This document shows positions 28,095 through 63,852 of a DNA stretch of 64,000 bases, in pieces. Numbering within the stretch: the stretch's first letter is position 1; each line of letters begins with the position of its first letter. The stretch spans positions 1 to 64,000 of the forward strand of contig JAFXHF010000024.1 in the NCBI GenBank assembly GCA_017536545.1, in the 5' to 3' direction. Source of the stretch: a bacterium (GTDB taxonomy: Bacteria; Cyanobacteriota; Vampirovibrionia; Gastranaerophilales; Gastranaerophilaceae). The notes beneath the pieces were generated by a model. It saw nothing but the letters and a program-made list of their open reading frames with translations, was not told the DNA's origin and searched no databases. The position numbers were made by a program, and so were the translations under genes.

Positions 28095-29780
28095 ATGAAA
28101 TATGAAAACGTTTTTAAGTTATTAGAAGAAATTACCATTAAAAACAACGAAACAGTTGCTTTAGGTATGAAATCAAAATGGGGATGGAATGAGTTCACAT
28201 ATAAGGGATTGGGTCTTTTATCAAGAAGACTTGCAAGCTATATCATGAACGATTTAGACATTCCTAAAGGTGAAAAATTAGCAATCCTATCTGAATCAAA
28301 ACCAGAATACGGAGCGTGTGTATTCGGTTCTGTTTTGGCAGGTTTAACAACAGTTCCATTAGATAATAAATTAACCATCTATGAACTTGAATCAATCTTA
28401 TCAAACTGTGAACCAGTTGTTCTTATGTGTTCAATAGCTAACATCGAAAGAGCAAAAGAATTACAAGCAAAAGTTCCATCAATTAAACATATTATTTTAA
28501 TGGATACTAAAACAGAAGATGAAAATATCGTGAGTGTATACACAATTCCAGAAGTTTACAACGCAAAATGGAGAAGAAGACCATTAAGTGCAACTGCGTT
28601 TCTTATATACACTTCAGGAACAACTGGAAATCCAAAAGGGGTTGAAATTACTTTCAAAAACATGCTTGCTCAAATGCATGACTTGAGATTAGCATTGAAA
28701 CAAATTCTTCCTCCAAACGAAAGAATGAGAGTATTGTCAATTCTTCCAATGAACCACCTATTTGAATTAACAGTAGGTTTCTTCACATTCTTGAACCACG
28801 GATTTTCAATTTACTACACTCAAAGTTTAAAACCAAAAGATATTCTAGATGTAATGTCTGAAAAGAAAATTAAATTTATGGTTACTGTACCTGCTTTCTT
28901 GAAATTATTAAAATCTTCAATCGAAGCAGAAATCAATAAAAAACCACCAATCGTTCAAAAGTTATTCAAAGCTAACTTGGCGATTGCAAGAACATTACCA
29001 ATGGATATGAGAAGAAAATTATTCAAACCTATTCACGACAAATTCGGTGGCGAATTCTGGGGATGTATCGCTGGTGGGGCTCCACTTGATCCACAAGTTG
29101 GTGAATTCTTCCAAAGCATTGGTATTCTTTGCTTACAAGGTTATGGTTTATCAGAAGCATCTCCTGTTGTTGCAGTAAACAGAGGTAAATATATCGATAT
29201 GAAATCTATCGGTTATGCTTTAGAATCGTTTGAAGCTGTTACTGACGAAACAACTGGCGAATTATTACTTCGTGGACCATCAGTAATGAAAGGTTACTAC
29301 AAGCAAGAAGATTTAACTGCAGAGGTTATTGATGCTGATGGTTGGTTGCACACAGGCGACATTGCCAAAATCGACCCTAAAACTAAAAACATCTACATCA
29401 CTGGTAGAATCAAAAACATGATTGTTCTATCTGGTGGTAAGAAAGTGTTCCCTGAAGAAGTTGAAGCAGTTTTAGAACAAAGCTCTAACTTTGCAGAAGT
29501 TTGTGTAATGGGTATGAAACGTGAATTCGGGGAAAAAGATGGTTGCGAAGAAATTGCAGCAATTATCGTACCTACACCAGATTACGCTGCTAACTTCAGC
29601 GATCCTCAAAACTTGGAAGACGCAGTTACTAATGAAGTTAAATTCCTATCAAGCAGATTGGCTCACTACAAACGCCCAATCAAAATCATCGTTCATACTG
29701 AATTGTTACCTAGAACAACAACTAGAAAACTTAAACGTATGGAAATTAAGAAAATGCTTAGCGAAATGACTAAAGTATAA
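28095..29780 (+). CDS. AMP-forming acyl-CoA ligase (long-chain fatty acid type)
   Basis: 561 residues. ANL-superfamily motifs: YTSGTTGNPKG (about 172-182, ATP binding), GYGLSEASPV, DGWLHTGDIAKID, and the hinge/C-domain ITGRIKNMIVLSGGKKVFPEE. The catalytic Lys in the C-terminal KLKRMEIKK is present. It activates a fatty acid to acyl-AMP and then acyl-CoA, or loads an ACP. AGAGGTG before the ATG. Single-gene unit with a terminator behind it. Chain-length preference cannot be read from sequence. Confidence 0.9.
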   Translation: MKYENVFKLLEEITIKNNETVALGMKSKWGWNEFTYKGLGLLSRRLASYIMNDLDIPKGEKLAILSESKPEYGACVFGSVLAGLTTVPLDNKLTIYELESILSNCEPVVLMCSIANIERAKELQAKVPSIKHIILMDTKTEDENIVSVYTIPEVYNAKWRRRPLSATAFLIYTSGTTGNPKGVEITFKNMLAQMHDLRLALKQILPPNERMRVLSILPMNHLFELTVGFFTFLNHGFSIYYTQSLKPKDILDVMSEKKIKFMVTVPAFLKLLKSSIEAEINKKPPIVQKLFKANLAIARTLPMDMRRKLFKPIHDKFGGEFWGCIAGGAPLDPQVGEFFQSIGILCLQGYGLSEASPVVAVNRGKYIDMKSIGYALESFEAVTDETTGELLLRGPSVMKGYYKQEDLTAEVIDADGWLHTGDIAKIDPKTKNIYITGRIKNMIVLSGGKKVFPEEVEAVLEQSSNFAEVCVMGMKREFGEKDGCEEIAAIIVPTPDYAANFSDPQNLEDAVTNEVKFLSSRLAHYKRPIKIIVHTELLPRTTTRKLKRMEIKKMLSEMTKV

Positions 29781-29794
29781 AACAATAATCAAAG

Positions 29795-29819
29795 GGCGGG
29801 TTGCATTTTGCGACCCGCC
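29795..29819. terminator. Terminator after the acyl-CoA ligase gene
   Basis: GGCGGGT pairs with ACCCGCC (29795-29801, 29813-29819) with extra pairing inside; GC-rich stem with a short T-run on the plus strand. It could also serve the convergent minus-strand gene. Confidence 0.7.
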
Positions 29820-29840
29820 ACTTTTATATATATCCCTAAT

Positions 29841-32060
29841 TTAAGCTAAACTTTCCCAGATTTTAGTCAACGCTTGAAGTTCTTGTAATGCTGGAACATT
29901 ATATAATAAAGCATCAATTGCTTCTGCATTAACATCTGTTAATTTATAAGAAAATGCTGCAGACTCATCACCACCAGCTTTATGCGATAATTCGTGTAAA
30001 CAAGTTTCTAAAACCTCAGCAAATTTTCCTCTATTCAAGTACTCTTGATCAATCCAGAAACCTTTTGTAGTACCTCTATCAATAATTGCTTCCGCTCTTA
30101 CATCGCTATATAGTTCTGAGTCTTTTGCACCTTTTGCATCAAAAATAAATATCTTAGTATCAATTTCTTCAGCAGAAAAATGCTTACCTTCCATATGTTG
30201 ACCTAAAATTCTGATAGCTTCTTTTAAAATTTTTAGTTTCTTTTCTTGAATTTCTGTTGGTTTTACTGCTTCGTGAGCTCGAGCATCTCCCATCAGTTCT
30301 CTAATTGTAGGCATACCCAATTTAGAAAATTCGTCTTTACAAATTCTATAACCTTTAGACACTAAATCTGCAACAACATCTGGCGATGCTGGTGAGTATG
30401 CCACACATTTTTCAGGGAATTTAATATGTATATCTTTATGCAAAATAGCGAAATAATCAATAAAACTGGTCAAGAAAGCATCAAAGCCTTTATTGTTTTC
30501 AACTTTATAAACTTTTCCCCAGTATTTTTCTAGTGATTGTATCAATTTCAAAGCTTCACCTTCACTGATACCTATGTAATTTTCGCCATGAGTAGCTACC
30601 CAACCACCAAGCTTACCTAATTCATCAAGGCTCAAAGAAATTCTATCTCTAGAAACATCTAAAGTTCGAGCATCTGGTTTTTCTTTAATAAATAATACTG
30701 AATTGTCAAAATCTGAATAATTACCATCATATTCAAAACGTTGACCAGCAATATATATTCCACCCTTATCATTTGGTCCTAAATCTGTTTTTATACCGAC
30801 AAAACGGTTTTCAAAACCTGGAGTTTTAAAATGTTCATTACCAGAATGATAGAATCTATTGATTGAATCTCTAAGTTTTACCAATAAATCACGATCAGTA
30901 GTTTCAAATTCTAAGAAGTTTCCATCCAGTTTTTCAACTTTGTCAATTGAATAAGATAAAATTTGTTTATCTGTTAAATCGGTATTAGCAAGTTCATAAG
31001 TCAATTTCCAATTATCAGAACCCACTCTTACGCTGTCAGCACCTCCTGATTTTAACAGTTTAAGAACAGCCATTTTTAAACCTTCACCATAGTTACCTGC
31101 AGAACGTGCATCATTACGTTTTGTAGATTCACCCATAAACAAGGCCTTATCAACTGTATAAGTACTATCACCTGAAATTCTTACTCTAAATTTACCATTT
31201 CCAACTGGAACAAATTCAAATCTTACACCATCTAGAGTTTGGCCGTGACCATCAAAGAAATTCTGAAGAATATCTCTTGCAACTTTATCATTATCCCAAT
31301 TTAATGCGTCTGCATAACCAATAGAAATTGTTGTTGGTTGCTTGTAAACAGGAACAAAATCTTTTGATGGCATTTTAGAAACTCTCATTTCACCTCTTGG
31401 CAAAACAAAACGAAACTCTCCACTTTCAGAAATTAATGGAATTTGTAATGGTTGCATATTAGCTCGTATATTTGTACCTGCGGCAGGTAACTCAACTGCA
31501 TCTTCAAATCGCCTTATCCCTTTACCAGTAATTGGTGGTGACATTGGGTCATAAGACAATGGATTTTCTTCAATAAGGGCTCTCATTCGAGCAAAAATTT
31601 GTTCTCTAATTTCTCTTGGTGATAAATCACTTTCAACCAATTCTGTAAATTTTTCACGTAATTCAGATGTTACTCTTCTCAAAGCTGATTCTGAACCTGA
31701 GGAAGTTTCATAAATAGCCTTTAGATCTTCTAATTCAGCTTTTACTCTTGATAATTCTTCTGATGCTGCAAGGTATCTTTCCGAAGTTCGTGACATTTCA
31801 TCCATCATCCAACTACTTCTAGATAAAGAACGACCACGTCCAATAACAAGTCCTGTTAACCCAGCTAAGGCAATACTTGCGTACAAAACACCTTTCTTTT
31901 GCTTATCAGATAATTCACTATATTTTTTTATTTTGAACTTTTTCTGATTACCTTTTTCTAGTTCTTCAACTGCAATATCAGTAGTTCTAGGCGTTTCAGG
32001 AGTTGCAGTAAAATTTGTGTAAACTGGGGAGTAACTATAACTTTTAATTGGTGAAATCAT
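29841..32060 (-). CDS. GHKL-type ATPase domain fused to an HExxH metallopeptidase-like domain
   Basis: 739 residues. After a polar N-terminus there is one membrane helix (about 58-75) and a coiled coil (about 85-150). A domain of about 245-470 resembles GHKL ATPases (Hsp90/MutL/histidine kinase): DILQNFFD (263-270) fits the N box, and NYGEGLK (323-329), preceded by FMGESTKRND, fits the G2 box and ATP lid. The C-terminal 100 residues hold HELSHKAGGDESAAF (HELSH 689-693), a zinc-protease motif with a Glu further on (AEAIDAL). ATG at 32060 follows AGAGG. Neither activity is proven. The layout suggests a membrane-anchored, ATP-gated protease. No partner gene is evident. Confidence 0.7.
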   Translation of the reverse strand: MISPIKSYSYSPVYTNFTATPETPRTTDIAVEELEKGNQKKFKIKKYSELSDKQKKGVLYASIALAGLTGLVIGRGRSLSRSSWMMDEMSRTSERYLAASEELSRVKAELEDLKAIYETSSGSESALRRVTSELREKFTELVESDLSPREIREQIFARMRALIEENPLSYDPMSPPITGKGIRRFEDAVELPAAGTNIRANMQPLQIPLISESGEFRFVLPRGEMRVSKMPSKDFVPVYKQPTTISIGYADALNWDNDKVARDILQNFFDGHGQTLDGVRFEFVPVGNGKFRVRISGDSTYTVDKALFMGESTKRNDARSAGNYGEGLKMAVLKLLKSGGADSVRVGSDNWKLTYELANTDLTDKQILSYSIDKVEKLDGNFLEFETTDRDLLVKLRDSINRFYHSGNEHFKTPGFENRFVGIKTDLGPNDKGGIYIAGQRFEYDGNYSDFDNSVLFIKEKPDARTLDVSRDRISLSLDELGKLGGWVATHGENYIGISEGEALKLIQSLEKYWGKVYKVENNKGFDAFLTSFIDYFAILHKDIHIKFPEKCVAYSPASPDVVADLVSKGYRICKDEFSKLGMPTIRELMGDARAHEAVKPTEIQEKKLKILKEAIRILGQHMEGKHFSAEEIDTKIFIFDAKGAKDSELYSDVRAEAIIDRGTTKGFWIDQEYLNRGKFAEVLETCLHELSHKAGGDESAAFSYKLTDVNAEAIDALLYNVPALQELQALTKIWESLA

Positions 32061-32135
32061 TAGAACCTCTGAAATTGTCGTACGCAATAATTATAAGAAG
32101 CCTAAAAAATAAATTTGCCTTTTTTATGGTATTAT

Positions 32136-32144
32136 TTAAGTAAT
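32136..32144 (+). promoter_or_regulatory. Short leader region of tolC-like gene
   Basis: TGG-TATTAT ends 9 nt before the ATG at 32145 and no Shine-Dalgarno is present, so the transcript would have a leader of about 3 nt. Confidence 0.35.
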
Positions 32145-33446
32145 ATGAAGAAGATAATTTTAGCTTTAAGTTTTATACTTCTAACTCAATCTACATCTTT
32201 TGCTATTGAAGATGTAAAAAAAGTATTTTTACAAGAAGCAATTGATGCTGCTGTTGAAAATAATATAGACTTAGAAGCGGCAAAATTAAATATTCAAATT
32301 GCAAAAAATAATATAAAATCAGCAAACAGACTCCAAAATCCACAGTTGGATTATTTTCAGTTTTTTGGGGCTGCTGGATGGAGTGAACCTCGACAAGTAG
32401 GAATTAATCAACCATTCGAAATTGCCAAAAGAGGTGCTCGTAAAAAATTAGCAAAATCCAACTTAAAATTAACAGAGAAAAATGTCGATTATACAAAGTT
32501 TGATTTAAAAATGGACGTAAGAGAAGCTTACGTTAACCTAGTTGCTGCAAAATCTGTACATGAAACTCTTTACCAACAACAAAAACTTCAGGAAGAACTA
32601 TTAGGCATTGTTAAGGGAAGAGTAAAAGTTGGAAAAGTTCCTGAAATAGACTTAATCCAAGCTGAAATTGCACTTAATCAAATGATAACTCAAGTTAACA
32701 CAGCAAAAGTTAACGTAAAAACAGCACTATCAAATTTCAACAAAATTATTAATAACCCAAACAAAATAACTTATGACAGTAAAGATAAAATTTTCGATGA
32801 AGAAAACAATTTTATTGAAATGCTAACTCCAAATCCTACATTAAAATTTCCTGACATATCAGAAATTATTGATGAGGCTTTAAAAAACCGTTACGACTTA
32901 CAAATAGCTAAACAAGAAATTGATGTTGCTGAAAAAAATCTAAAACTTATTGCAAGACAAAGAGTGCCAGATTTGGCTATTCTTGGGGGATTTGCATTCC
33001 AAGGAGCCCAACATACCATAGACAATAGATTTAATGGTGGGGCTTATGTTGGAGCTAGCGTAGTAAATATCCCACTTTTATACAACTACGGACCAGAAAT
33101 TAAAAACGCAGCCTTAAAACTTCAACAAGCAGAACTAAACTACATTTCAATTAGAAACAAAGCTGAAAAAGATGTTGAAGCAGCATACGAAAAATTTTTA
33201 ACCGCTGCAGAAAACTTAAATGATTATGAATCCAAAATTCTAACAAGTTCTGACGAATTGATTGATATTTCGATTAAAGCATACGAAACAGGCAAATCAG
33301 ACCTAACAGCACTTATCGTAATGAAGCAGTCTTACAAATCAATTCTTGTGGGACATACATATGCTTTAGCAGATTATTATAATAGTTGGACAAACTTCTT
33401 ACGAGAAGTTAACGATGAAAATTTCAAATTACATACATCATTATAA
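32145..33446 (+). CDS. TolC-family outer-membrane efflux protein
   Basis: 433 residues with a signal peptide (MKKIILALSFILLTQSTSFA, cleavage after the Ala). The mature part has two structural repeats of long amphipathic helices, as in TolC/CusC: for example AAVENNIDLEAAKLNIQIAK and its counterpart EALKNRYDLQIAKQEI. TolC trimers form channels through the outer membrane for tripartite exporters. No membrane-fusion or RND/ABC partner is encoded nearby. ATG at 32145 chosen because the signal peptide starts there. Confidence 0.88.
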   Translation: MKKIILALSFILLTQSTSFAIEDVKKVFLQEAIDAAVENNIDLEAAKLNIQIAKNNIKSANRLQNPQLDYFQFFGAAGWSEPRQVGINQPFEIAKRGARKKLAKSNLKLTEKNVDYTKFDLKMDVREAYVNLVAAKSVHETLYQQQKLQEELLGIVKGRVKVGKVPEIDLIQAEIALNQMITQVNTAKVNVKTALSNFNKIINNPNKITYDSKDKIFDEENNFIEMLTPNPTLKFPDISEIIDEALKNRYDLQIAKQEIDVAEKNLKLIARQRVPDLAILGGFAFQGAQHTIDNRFNGGAYVGASVVNIPLLYNYGPEIKNAALKLQQAELNYISIRNKAEKDVEAAYEKFLTAAENLNDYESKILTSSDELIDISIKAYETGKSDLTALIVMKQSYKSILVGHTYALADYYNSWTNFLREVNDENFKLHTSL

Positions 33447-49639: not shown

Positions 49640-50182
49640 TTATACACCGAATTCATTTAACAATGAGTCAACCGCTTTTGAAACTTCGGCAGCTTTTGCA
49701 GCTTCTGCTTCTGCTTTAGCAACGTCTTCGGCATACTTAGCTACTGCAACTTTATCCAATGCTTTTGCAACTGAAGCAAGTCTTTCAACATCCATTAGCG
49801 TATTATAAGGACGATTAAATGAGCCCCAAGCATTGAAGAATGGTACACTTTCACCATATGGTACATATCTAGCAACACCAGCTACTGCAACACCATTATC
49901 ATTATTTATCATAACAATATTTTCTTCTGCCCCACGAGTTAATTTTGGCAAACCTGCTTGGTTACATACGCCAAAATAAGCCTCTTTATCTGCAACAATT
50001 TTAGGAACTGAATCAGCACCAATTTCTACGTGATAAAGTTTAGTATCTGCAAGTTCTCTACCTGCTTTTACAATTGATGCAATCGTTTCTGGAGTTTGTC
50101 CCTCTAAAACTTTTCTTGCAGCCTTGTCAACTCTTAAAGCCATACCAAAATTTTGTACTGACGGATTGTTGTTAATTTGCAT
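49640..50182 (-). CDS. Hypothetical protein with an N-terminal NFG motif
   Basis: 180 residues. Opens MQINNNPSVQNFGMALRVDK, a leader that resembles the start of the protein at 55934. The middle has LYHVEIG and VAGVARYVPYG; the C-terminal 45 residues form an Ala/Lys/Glu helix (KYAEDVAKAEAEAAKAAEV). No membrane segment. AAAGGAAAGGA precedes the ATG. Not a known family to me. Confidence 0.6.
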   Translation of the reverse strand: MQINNNPSVQNFGMALRVDKAARKVLEGQTPETIASIVKAGRELADTKLYHVEIGADSVPKIVADKEAYFGVCNQAGLPKLTRGAEENIVMINNDNGVAVAGVARYVPYGESVPFFNAWGSFNRPYNTLMDVERLASVAKALDKVAVAKYAEDVAKAEAEAAKAAEVSKAVDSLLNEFGV

Positions 50183-55933: not shown

Positions 55934-56215
55934 ATGCAAATCTACAATTCTACCCAAAAACCTAATTACAACCCTCAATTTGGTGCTATTTTTAAATTTA
56001 ACAAAACCGCAGAATCAACGGCTGAAGTTGTACTTAATGTAATTAAAAAATCTACAGTCGCAGATGAAGCTCAAAAACTAGAAAAGAAATTTGAAGTTGG
56101 TATTGGCGAAGCTTATGTTTATATCCCAGATGCAAGAATGAAAGAGTTCGCAGATAGATTAGCTTGTAGTCTCACTCAAGAATGCTACAATAAATACCTA
56201 ACTCGAGTTGATTAA
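55934..56215 (+). CDS. Small hypothetical protein with NPQFG leader motif
   Basis: 93 residues. Begins MQIYNSTQKPNYNPQFGAIF; the rest is a compact alpha/beta sequence (ESTAEVVLNVIKKS, FEVGIGEAYVYIPD, MKEFADRLACSL). AAAGGAG precedes the ATG. Its leader resembles those at 49640 and 25938. No family recognised. No clear terminator behind it. Confidence 0.6.
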   Translation: MQIYNSTQKPNYNPQFGAIFKFNKTAESTAEVVLNVIKKSTVADEAQKLEKKFEVGIGEAYVYIPDARMKEFADRLACSLTQECYNKYLTRVD

Positions 56216-62652: not shown

Positions 62653-63852
62653 TTAAGTATTTAGATTCAACAGTGGTAACGTAACAACTTTACCTTGACT
62701 TATAGCATCACTAATTGCAGTAGATAAAACGCTATCATTAACATAATACATTCTATTAGAGCCGCCAAAAACTTTTGCCAATTCTAACGAACAATCTTTA
62801 TAAACATCTTCAGCAAATTGACCAGCTTTCCTTGCATCCTTCTCTAGAAAATTATTCCAATAACCTTTTCTTGTAATAGTTGTAAACGGATATAATATTC
62901 CCGAAACCTTATTCTTTATAGCATATGACCAATTTTTATAAATAGGAACTTTATCACCATCAGCTCTAAACAAGTTCAAAAATCTTTGAACAAATTGAGA
63001 ACCTTTTTTATGCTGAAACTTATGTCTATACTCATGGTTTATTGTATCAACCAAATCAGCCTTTGTTAGTAACGGAGCATTTGCATCAACTACAACTCTA
63101 CTATTAAAATCTCTATAATAGCCACCACAATTTTTCGTCGGTGCAACAACAAAATCGCCAGCAATACCTTCAACTCGTTGATTCTTTTCAGCTATCCAAC
63201 GAGCGGATTTTGCAAAATCTTCCAAATCATAATTTCTTATAAACAAATATGGATCTCGAGATAAATGTTCAACATCAACACCCATGCCAGTAACTTGAGT
63301 ATCGACAACATGTCCGTCTGGCAATCTTTTCGCATAAGTTTCAAGATATTTTGATCGTCCTTTCGCGGGAACAAATGTTTCATATAATTGATGCTCAAGA
63401 CGTTCTCCGCCACCACCAAAATGTTTTTCAAAAGTGACCTTTGAAGTAACTCGTGAAATTTCATTATCGCCTACATTATATCCAAGCAAATTCAACATTT
63501 CTTCTTTTTCGCTCATAACCATACCACCACGACCAATCTTTTTAGTCTTGACAGTTCTAGTTGAGTCAAAATTAGAATAATCTTTAAGTATTTGCTCTAC
63601 AACCTCACCATTTCGTGTTTCCGAAATTGTTCTATGTAAAAGCTTTCCTTCTGGTGAAATATATGAAGTTATAGTTTTTATAGCTTTACCAAATTCAGTT
63701 TCAACTTTTACAACATCAGAATATATGCTCCCTGAAACATCGATATCTAGAGGAACTTTACACTTCCCAATCATTCGTTCCTTTGAAAGTAAACGACAAC
63801 CGTTTTTAGTATATTTAATTCCATTTTTTACAATAGAACCAACTATAGTCAC
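62653..63852 (-). CDS. Hypothetical protein with HExxH zinc-peptidase motif
   Basis: 399 residues. The first 200 show beta-rich, possibly repetitive character (for example KVETEFGKAIKTITSYI, then KTKKIGRGGMVMS) without a signal peptide. Residues 273-277 are HEYRH, followed by KFQH, and NNFLEKDARKAG (about 333-344) offers the third ligand, as in gluzincin-like HExxH...E domains. The start is GTG at 63852 with AAGG 9 nt upstream. It stands alone; no inhibitor or substrate gene is next to it. Protease activity is inferred from the motif only. Confidence 0.6.
   Translation of the reverse strand: MTIVGSIVKNGIKYTKNGCRLLSKERMIGKCKVPLDIDVSGSIYSDVVKVETEFGKAIKTITSYISPEGKLLHRTISETRNGEVVEQILKDYSNFDSTRTVKTKKIGRGGMVMSEKEEMLNLLGYNVGDNEISRVTSKVTFEKHFGGGGERLEHQLYETFVPAKGRSKYLETYAKRLPDGHVVDTQVTGMGVDVEHLSRDPYLFIRNYDLEDFAKSARWIAEKNQRVEGIAGDFVVAPTKNCGGYYRDFNSRVVVDANAPLLTKADLVDTINHEYRHKFQHKKGSQFVQRFLNLFRADGDKVPIYKNWSYAIKNKVSGILYPFTTITRKGYWNNFLEKDARKAGQFAEDVYKDCSLELAKVFGGSNRMYYVNDSVLSTAISDAISQGKVVTLPLLNLNT

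Follow-up and report, generated by a model that had tools for sequence, protein, structure and literature searches.

The window analysed here is a stretch of 64,000 nucleotides from a bacterium of the family Gastranaerophilaceae (Vampirovibrionia; contig JAFXHF010000024.1). It carries a gene for a protein of 739 amino acids, the parts of which are listed in Table 1. A TTG codon upstream, at 32087, is an alternative start that would add nine residues; the ATG at 32060 is preferred because the N-termini of homologues support it. The gene is transcribed on its own. An acyl-CoA ligase gene converges on it and ends 61 bp away, with the terminator hairpin in between, and a TolC-like gene runs divergently from a start no more than about 90 bp away from the ATG. 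We also looked for an operon or a conserved partner in about 30 neighbourhoods of homologues and found none, so the earlier remark that the gene has no obvious operon partner stands. Neighbours shared between genomes were rejected as partners, since a common chromosomal place accounts for them.

Table 1. Features of the 739-residue protein and its gene, with positions in the window
Feature	Position	Strand	Details
Whole gene, 739 aa	29841..32060	minus	ATG start 32060, stop 29841
11-pair hairpin terminator	29795..29819	scored on +	between the convergent ligase gene and the 739-aa gene
Residues 1-45, disordered N-terminal tail MISPIK...TNFTATP, lineage-typical	31926..32060	minus	pLDDT about 30-50; similar tails in homologues
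Residues 56-75, single hydrophobic helix rich in Ala/Gly, predicted to anchor the protein in the membrane	31836..31895	minus	hydropathy
Residues 80-165, long helical coiled-coil-like region	31566..31823	minus	model helices 80-119, 124-142, 148-165
Residues 241-405, Bergerat-type (GHKL) domain	30846..31340	minus	phrog_6077 E=6.4e-13; TRAP1/HtpG/topo VI Z 9-10; topo VI B and MORC2 profile matches
Residues 262-272 RDILQNFFDGH, N-box	31245..31277	minus	Asp263 replaces Glu, Asn267 kept
Residues 295-302 ISGDSTYT, G1 box position	31155..31178	minus	adenine-binding DxG absent
Residues 310-331 GESTKRNDARSAGNYGEGLKMA, STK and G2 box (ATP lid)	31068..31133	minus	invariant G310, K314, G322, G325-327, K329
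Residues 410-490, S5/transducer-like segment with SRDR	30591..30833	minus	low confidence in P0001 model; phage model 4-248 matches GyrB43, Hsp90 NM
Residues 470-473 SRDR	30642..30653	minus	R471-D472-R473 invariant in bacteria, invariant or nearly so when phages are included
Residues 478-600, mainly helical middle region	30261..30629	minus	model
Residues 601-739, WLM/Wss1-like zincin domain	29844..30260	minus	pLDDT 63-95; Wss1 5xbv structural match; Wss1 among profile matches
Residues 689-698 HELSHKAGGD, HExxH and putative third ligand Asp698	29967..29996	minus	H689, E690, H693, G696, G697, D698 invariant

Matches to the protein were found in 37 of 292 genomes of the phylum, nearly all within the family of the genome studied, and in 16 of 60 near relatives. 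The same genome carries a second copy, 47% identical, on another contig, and a 94% identical orthologue is present in Bacterium isolate RGIG8499, which came from the caecum of a water deer. In an alignment of 13 bacterial sequences (homologues 28-94% identical), residues N267, D270, G322, G325-G327, K329 and R471-D472-R473 are invariant, as are H689, E690, H693, G696, G697, D698 and F703. Comparison with the 94% identical orthologue gave a dN/dS of 0.14 overall, 0.02 for the clamp domain and 0.12 for the protease domain. At the level of codon comparison this shows that the protein is under purifying selection; with the conservation, it led us to reject a chance origin of the motifs. The gene is patchily distributed: relatives with the same ligase neighbour carry other genes at that place. 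The interval between the ligase and the TolC-like gene (29780-32145) holds other genes in relatives G001, G018, G007 and G008 (L201-L204) and looks like a variable site. When positions 29844-32060 were compared with L023:8001-10214, dS was 0.87 across the protease part and 0.02-0.09 across the linker and the clamp, a contrast that suggests recombination of the 3' end of the gene.

The original prediction had read from the letters a membrane helix, a coiled coil and the motifs DILQNFFD, NYGEGLK and HELSH, and all of them were found in their places. The helix at about residues 56-75 has a Kyte-Doolittle value of 1.56, and a hydrophobic helix near the N-terminus, with values of 1.56-2.54, is shared by all listed single-unit members of the home family; it is absent in L029 and L030, which belong to another family. 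Basic residues flank the predicted membrane helix on both sides, which we count against the explanation preferred below. A short N-terminal tail with xFxG or xFxA seems to occur in many proteins of the lineage, for example at 49640-50182 (minus), 55934-56215 (plus) and in the gene at 29841-32060 (minus). In a crude test on 238 proteins, 21 N-terminal matches were counted vs 9.8 ± 2.4 internal ones, a count inflated by homologues of the gene studied. This tail is possibly a sorting tag.

The protein gave no match above the cut-offs of Pfam and NCBIfam, nothing among the PADLOC defence profiles beyond a weak match of its coiled coil to Cas11a (E=0.025), and no significant relative of solved structure in a single-sequence search. 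The sole significant family was phrog_6077, a phage family with no assigned function, which matched residues 243-380 (E=6.4e-13) over only positions 6-133 of the 366 in the profile. A profile made from the protein and its phage relatives matched 13 PDB sequences, each marginally (E 0.04-1). All belong to one of two groups: topo VI subunit B and MORC2 chains, which match the clamp, and WLM or zincin chains, which match the C-terminal part (Wss1, a second WLM protease, proabylysin and a zincin-like protein). Since no unrelated fold is found among the 13, the clamp and zincin assignments back each other, though each match is marginal. A profile of the phage members alone matched mainly GHKL chains, plus three unrelated marginal ones.

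Using structure prediction and fold searches, we found both a Bergerat-type fold and a Wss1/WLM-type zincin. Thus, the claim that one protein joins a GHKL-like and an HExxH domain is supported by structure for both parts, and by profiles marginally but consistently. Neither of the two outcomes that the original prediction had named as refuting it, a model lacking a Bergerat fold or lacking a zinc site at HELSH, was obtained. The whole-chain model, P0001, is weak overall (mean pLDDT 60.8, pTM 0.36), and its alignment leans on phage sequences; local confidence is mostly 80-95 for residues 600-739 and 82-88 for the strands after the N-box helix. Because the whole-chain model is poor, the domain arrangement and the S5 segment are tentative. 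Residues 236-472 of P0001 match TRAP1, HtpG and topo VI with Z 9-10 and rmsd 3-4 Å (VIA-align). The phage relative L093 (435 aa) was modelled with a pLDDT of 94.7 and pTM of 0.82, and over residues 4-248 this model matches GyrB43, T6 topo II ATPase and closed Hsp90 NM, that is, their GHKL+S5 modules, with Z 12-13; Foldseek adds MORC2. Because clamp matches fill the list of the structure search, the L093 zincin is not separately listed there; the order of its secondary structure elements is the same as in P0001.

The clamp domain was earlier called a GHKL-like ATPase. It turned out that the likeness holds for the fold and for the G2 box, present as GNYGEG within GNYGEGLK (322-329); Asn267 of the N-box is invariant. 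The Glu of the N-box is Asp in every bacterial member and Glu in the phage members (RE..QN or RE..AN). In GHKL proteins the Asp of the G1 box, DxGxG, contacts adenine; the 739-residue protein has ISGDSTYT instead, and DxG is missing throughout the bacterial clade. For this reason we name the protein a Bergerat-fold protein and do not file it as an ATPase. Phage L050 keeps DDGPG, which, judging by sequence, is the form that an intact G1 site may take. A basic residue of the S5 domain has been described for GHKL enzymes (PMC2292703), and by analogy the pair R471/R473 may act in the same way, as a γ-phosphate sensor.

The missing G1 motif and the replaced N-box Glu would also be expected if the clamp did not bind ATP at all and were a degenerate Bergerat scaffold for dimerisation or ligand sensing, with the zincin as an ordinary membrane-tethered protease free of nucleotide control. 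We regard this as unlikely, although it deserves serious attention. Across bacteria and phages the G2 box, N267 and R471-D472-R473 show little or no variation, the clamp-domain dN/dS is very low, and the L050 motif survives; all of these argue against a clamp without ATP. Another explanation, which is rather improbable, follows from the fact that topo VI, T6 topo II, MORC2 and Wss1, all among the nearest folds, act on DNA. The clamp would then close around DNA in the manner of MORC and topo VI, and proteins bound or crosslinked to that DNA would be cut by the WLM-like domain, as they are by Wss1 and SPRTN. However, the membrane helix is conserved in the home lineage, no DNA-binding domain was recognised in the protein, and an equally good match is given by Hsp90, a protein that has no action on DNA.

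The C-terminal domain had been described as HExxH metallopeptidase-like. Wss1 (5xbv) was the first match for residues 598-725, with Z 10.0 and rmsd 2.7 Å over 108 of 126 residues (VIA-align), and H689, E690 and H693 of the HExxH motif are invariant. The usual third ligand His is absent, the aligned position being variable (E, G, S, T), and the invariant Asp698 lies one residue before it in the alignment to Wss1. The score against Pfam PF08325 was 12.8 bits vs a gathering threshold of 26. An Asp shortly after HExxH has been reported in one set of polyvalent-protein peptidases (PMC5512222). Judging from the models, it is plausible that the domain is a metallopeptidase with an atypical third ligand. 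Separately, a zincin-like NHEYRHKFQH motif is seen in the C-terminal half of another ORF of the window, 62653-63852 (minus).

The bacterial relatives take two forms. Single-unit members are membrane proteins of about 700-760 aa. Giant members, 16 in number (L028, L045, L154-L167), end in two tandem clamp-protease units; the open frames seen for them measure about 1,150-4,370 aa, some being ended by contig edges. Unit 1 keeps HExxH in all 16 giants, and in unit 2 the motif is gone in every case that was scored, while the N-box and G2 motifs are kept in both units. The unit-2 copies group in a single clade (15 leaves, support 0.87). Loss of the protease in unit 2 is therefore about one ancient event, since kept, and not sixteen, and we rejected repeated independent loss of the zinc site. 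As far as the sequences can tell, two clamps with one live protease fit the prediction for a clamp that needs to pair, that is, an asymmetric clamp dimer. Some giants have EF-hand-like and LysM-like stretches in their N-terminal parts. Just upstream of one giant gene, L045:409-1194 reads as a tyrosine recombinase-like ORF, and it forms one cluster with a matching ORF of L155; its presence directly upstream of the giant gene in both records suggests mobility.

For phage polyvalent-protein metallopeptidases, self-cleavage that releases another domain has been proposed (PMC5512222). It is conceivable, and to our mind less probable than a protease at a DNA clamp, that the zincin here likewise cuts its own chain and frees another domain. 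This would suit the giants, with their long N-terminal parts and single live unit, and the integrase-like ORF cluster beside two of them. However, single-unit members end at the zincin and have only the tail, the membrane helix and the coiled coil before the clamp. That the zincin is catalytically dead and only binds substrate or peptide is very improbable, because neither HExxH nor Asp698 varies among the single-unit proteins, and every giant retains HExxH in its unit 1, even though unit 2 persists without it.

The search of viral contigs with the mixed alignment A1 showed that 79 viral loci carry the clamp family, and in 25 of these an HExxH lies near the C-terminus. The clamp-zincin fusion is thus common in bacteriophages. 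No close relatives turned up when the viral contigs were scanned with P0001, with P0004 or with the bacterial alignment A2; a scan of the contigs for HExxHK.GGD hit one contig, already among the known loci, and tblastn found no plasmid relatives. A genome search with phrog_6077 recovered the same family again. Among viral models, L093 matches many RIIA proteins and also A0A3G3BWI8, which at 437 residues is as long as P0004, a protein of Exiguobacterium phage vB_EalM-132.

Taken together, we lean towards a membrane-tethered clamp protease, which we give slightly better than an even chance: closure of a GHKL+S5-type clamp would deliver substrate to a WLM-like protease or switch the protease on. 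The Bergerat+S5-type module would act in the way that the ATP clamp does in Hsp90, GyrB and MORC, with the ligand shutting the lid and driving dimerisation. Closure would bring the captured substrate to the C-terminal zinc protease or turn the protease on. Paired chains would be kept at the membrane by the coiled coil together with the one membrane helix. The proposal starts from what was observed, namely the architecture, conservation, purifying selection, the phage fusion and the tandem giants with a live and a dead unit. From these we infer that the ligand is a nucleotide, that the protein dimerises and binds zinc, and that it is an active protease under the control of the clamp. It is also possible, with somewhat less than an even chance, that phages and gut bacteria of the Vampirovibrionia type share a class of clamp-gated proteases, in which the giants would be a built-in asymmetric dimer of a live and a dead unit. 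As to the role, our leading guess, of low confidence, is conditional cleavage of a protein at the membrane in phage-host conflict; it is prompted by the relatives among RIIA-like phage proteins and by the patchy, accessory nature of the gene.

It is well established that AAA+ ATPases run proteases. Proteases run by a clamp of the Hsp90/gyrase type are not described in the literature that we searched. If the proposal is true, there is a second way of coupling nucleotide state to proteolysis, and RIIA-like proteins of phages gain, for their variable C-termini, a biochemical activity that can be tested; the compact phage versions (about 435 aa) are suitable for this. Each part of the protein is known. 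The GHKL-HExxH fusion, its membrane form and its asymmetric tandem form appear not to have been described: we found no description in the open-access literature, outside which most subscription journals lie.

Among known systems, Wss1/WLM proteases (PF08325) have in common with the 739-residue protein the fold, the HExxH helix and the F that follows; their third ligand is the His of GPH, for which our protein has the invariant Asp one residue earlier. Polyvalent-protein zincin-like MPTases are also large multidomain HExxH proteins and occur in mobile elements (PMC5512222, which makes no mention of rIIA, HSP90 or GHKL). The phrog_6077 proteins, including AYP68649.1 of Exiguobacterium phage vB_EalM-132, have the same clamp domain, and many end in an HExxH zincin. 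However, they are mostly 360-590 aa long, begin at the clamp domain without a membrane or coiled-coil part, and often have zincins of the form HExxH..G.DG...H, unlike our protein. RIIA consists of an N-terminal GHKL domain and a variable C-terminal part, and RIIA-like phage proteins with variable C-terminal domains are counted among counter-defence factors (PMC7824862). The models of the phage branch show a partial likeness to proteins of the T4 RIIA type: L093 matches many RIIA models with Foldseek E mostly 1e-7 to 1e-10, although the whole-chain likeness is weak (rmsd 9-24 Å), and for P0001 the Foldseek E against RIIA is 2.4e-3. A WLM domain is not described for T4 RIIA in the literature searched. 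Finally, Hsp90/TRAP1/HtpG, GyrB43, topo VI B and MORC share the Bergerat+S5 arrangement with the phage relative; whereas Hsp90, gyrase and MORC carry a chaperone, topoisomerase or CW domain, the clade of the 739-residue protein carries a protease and lacks the G1 Asp.
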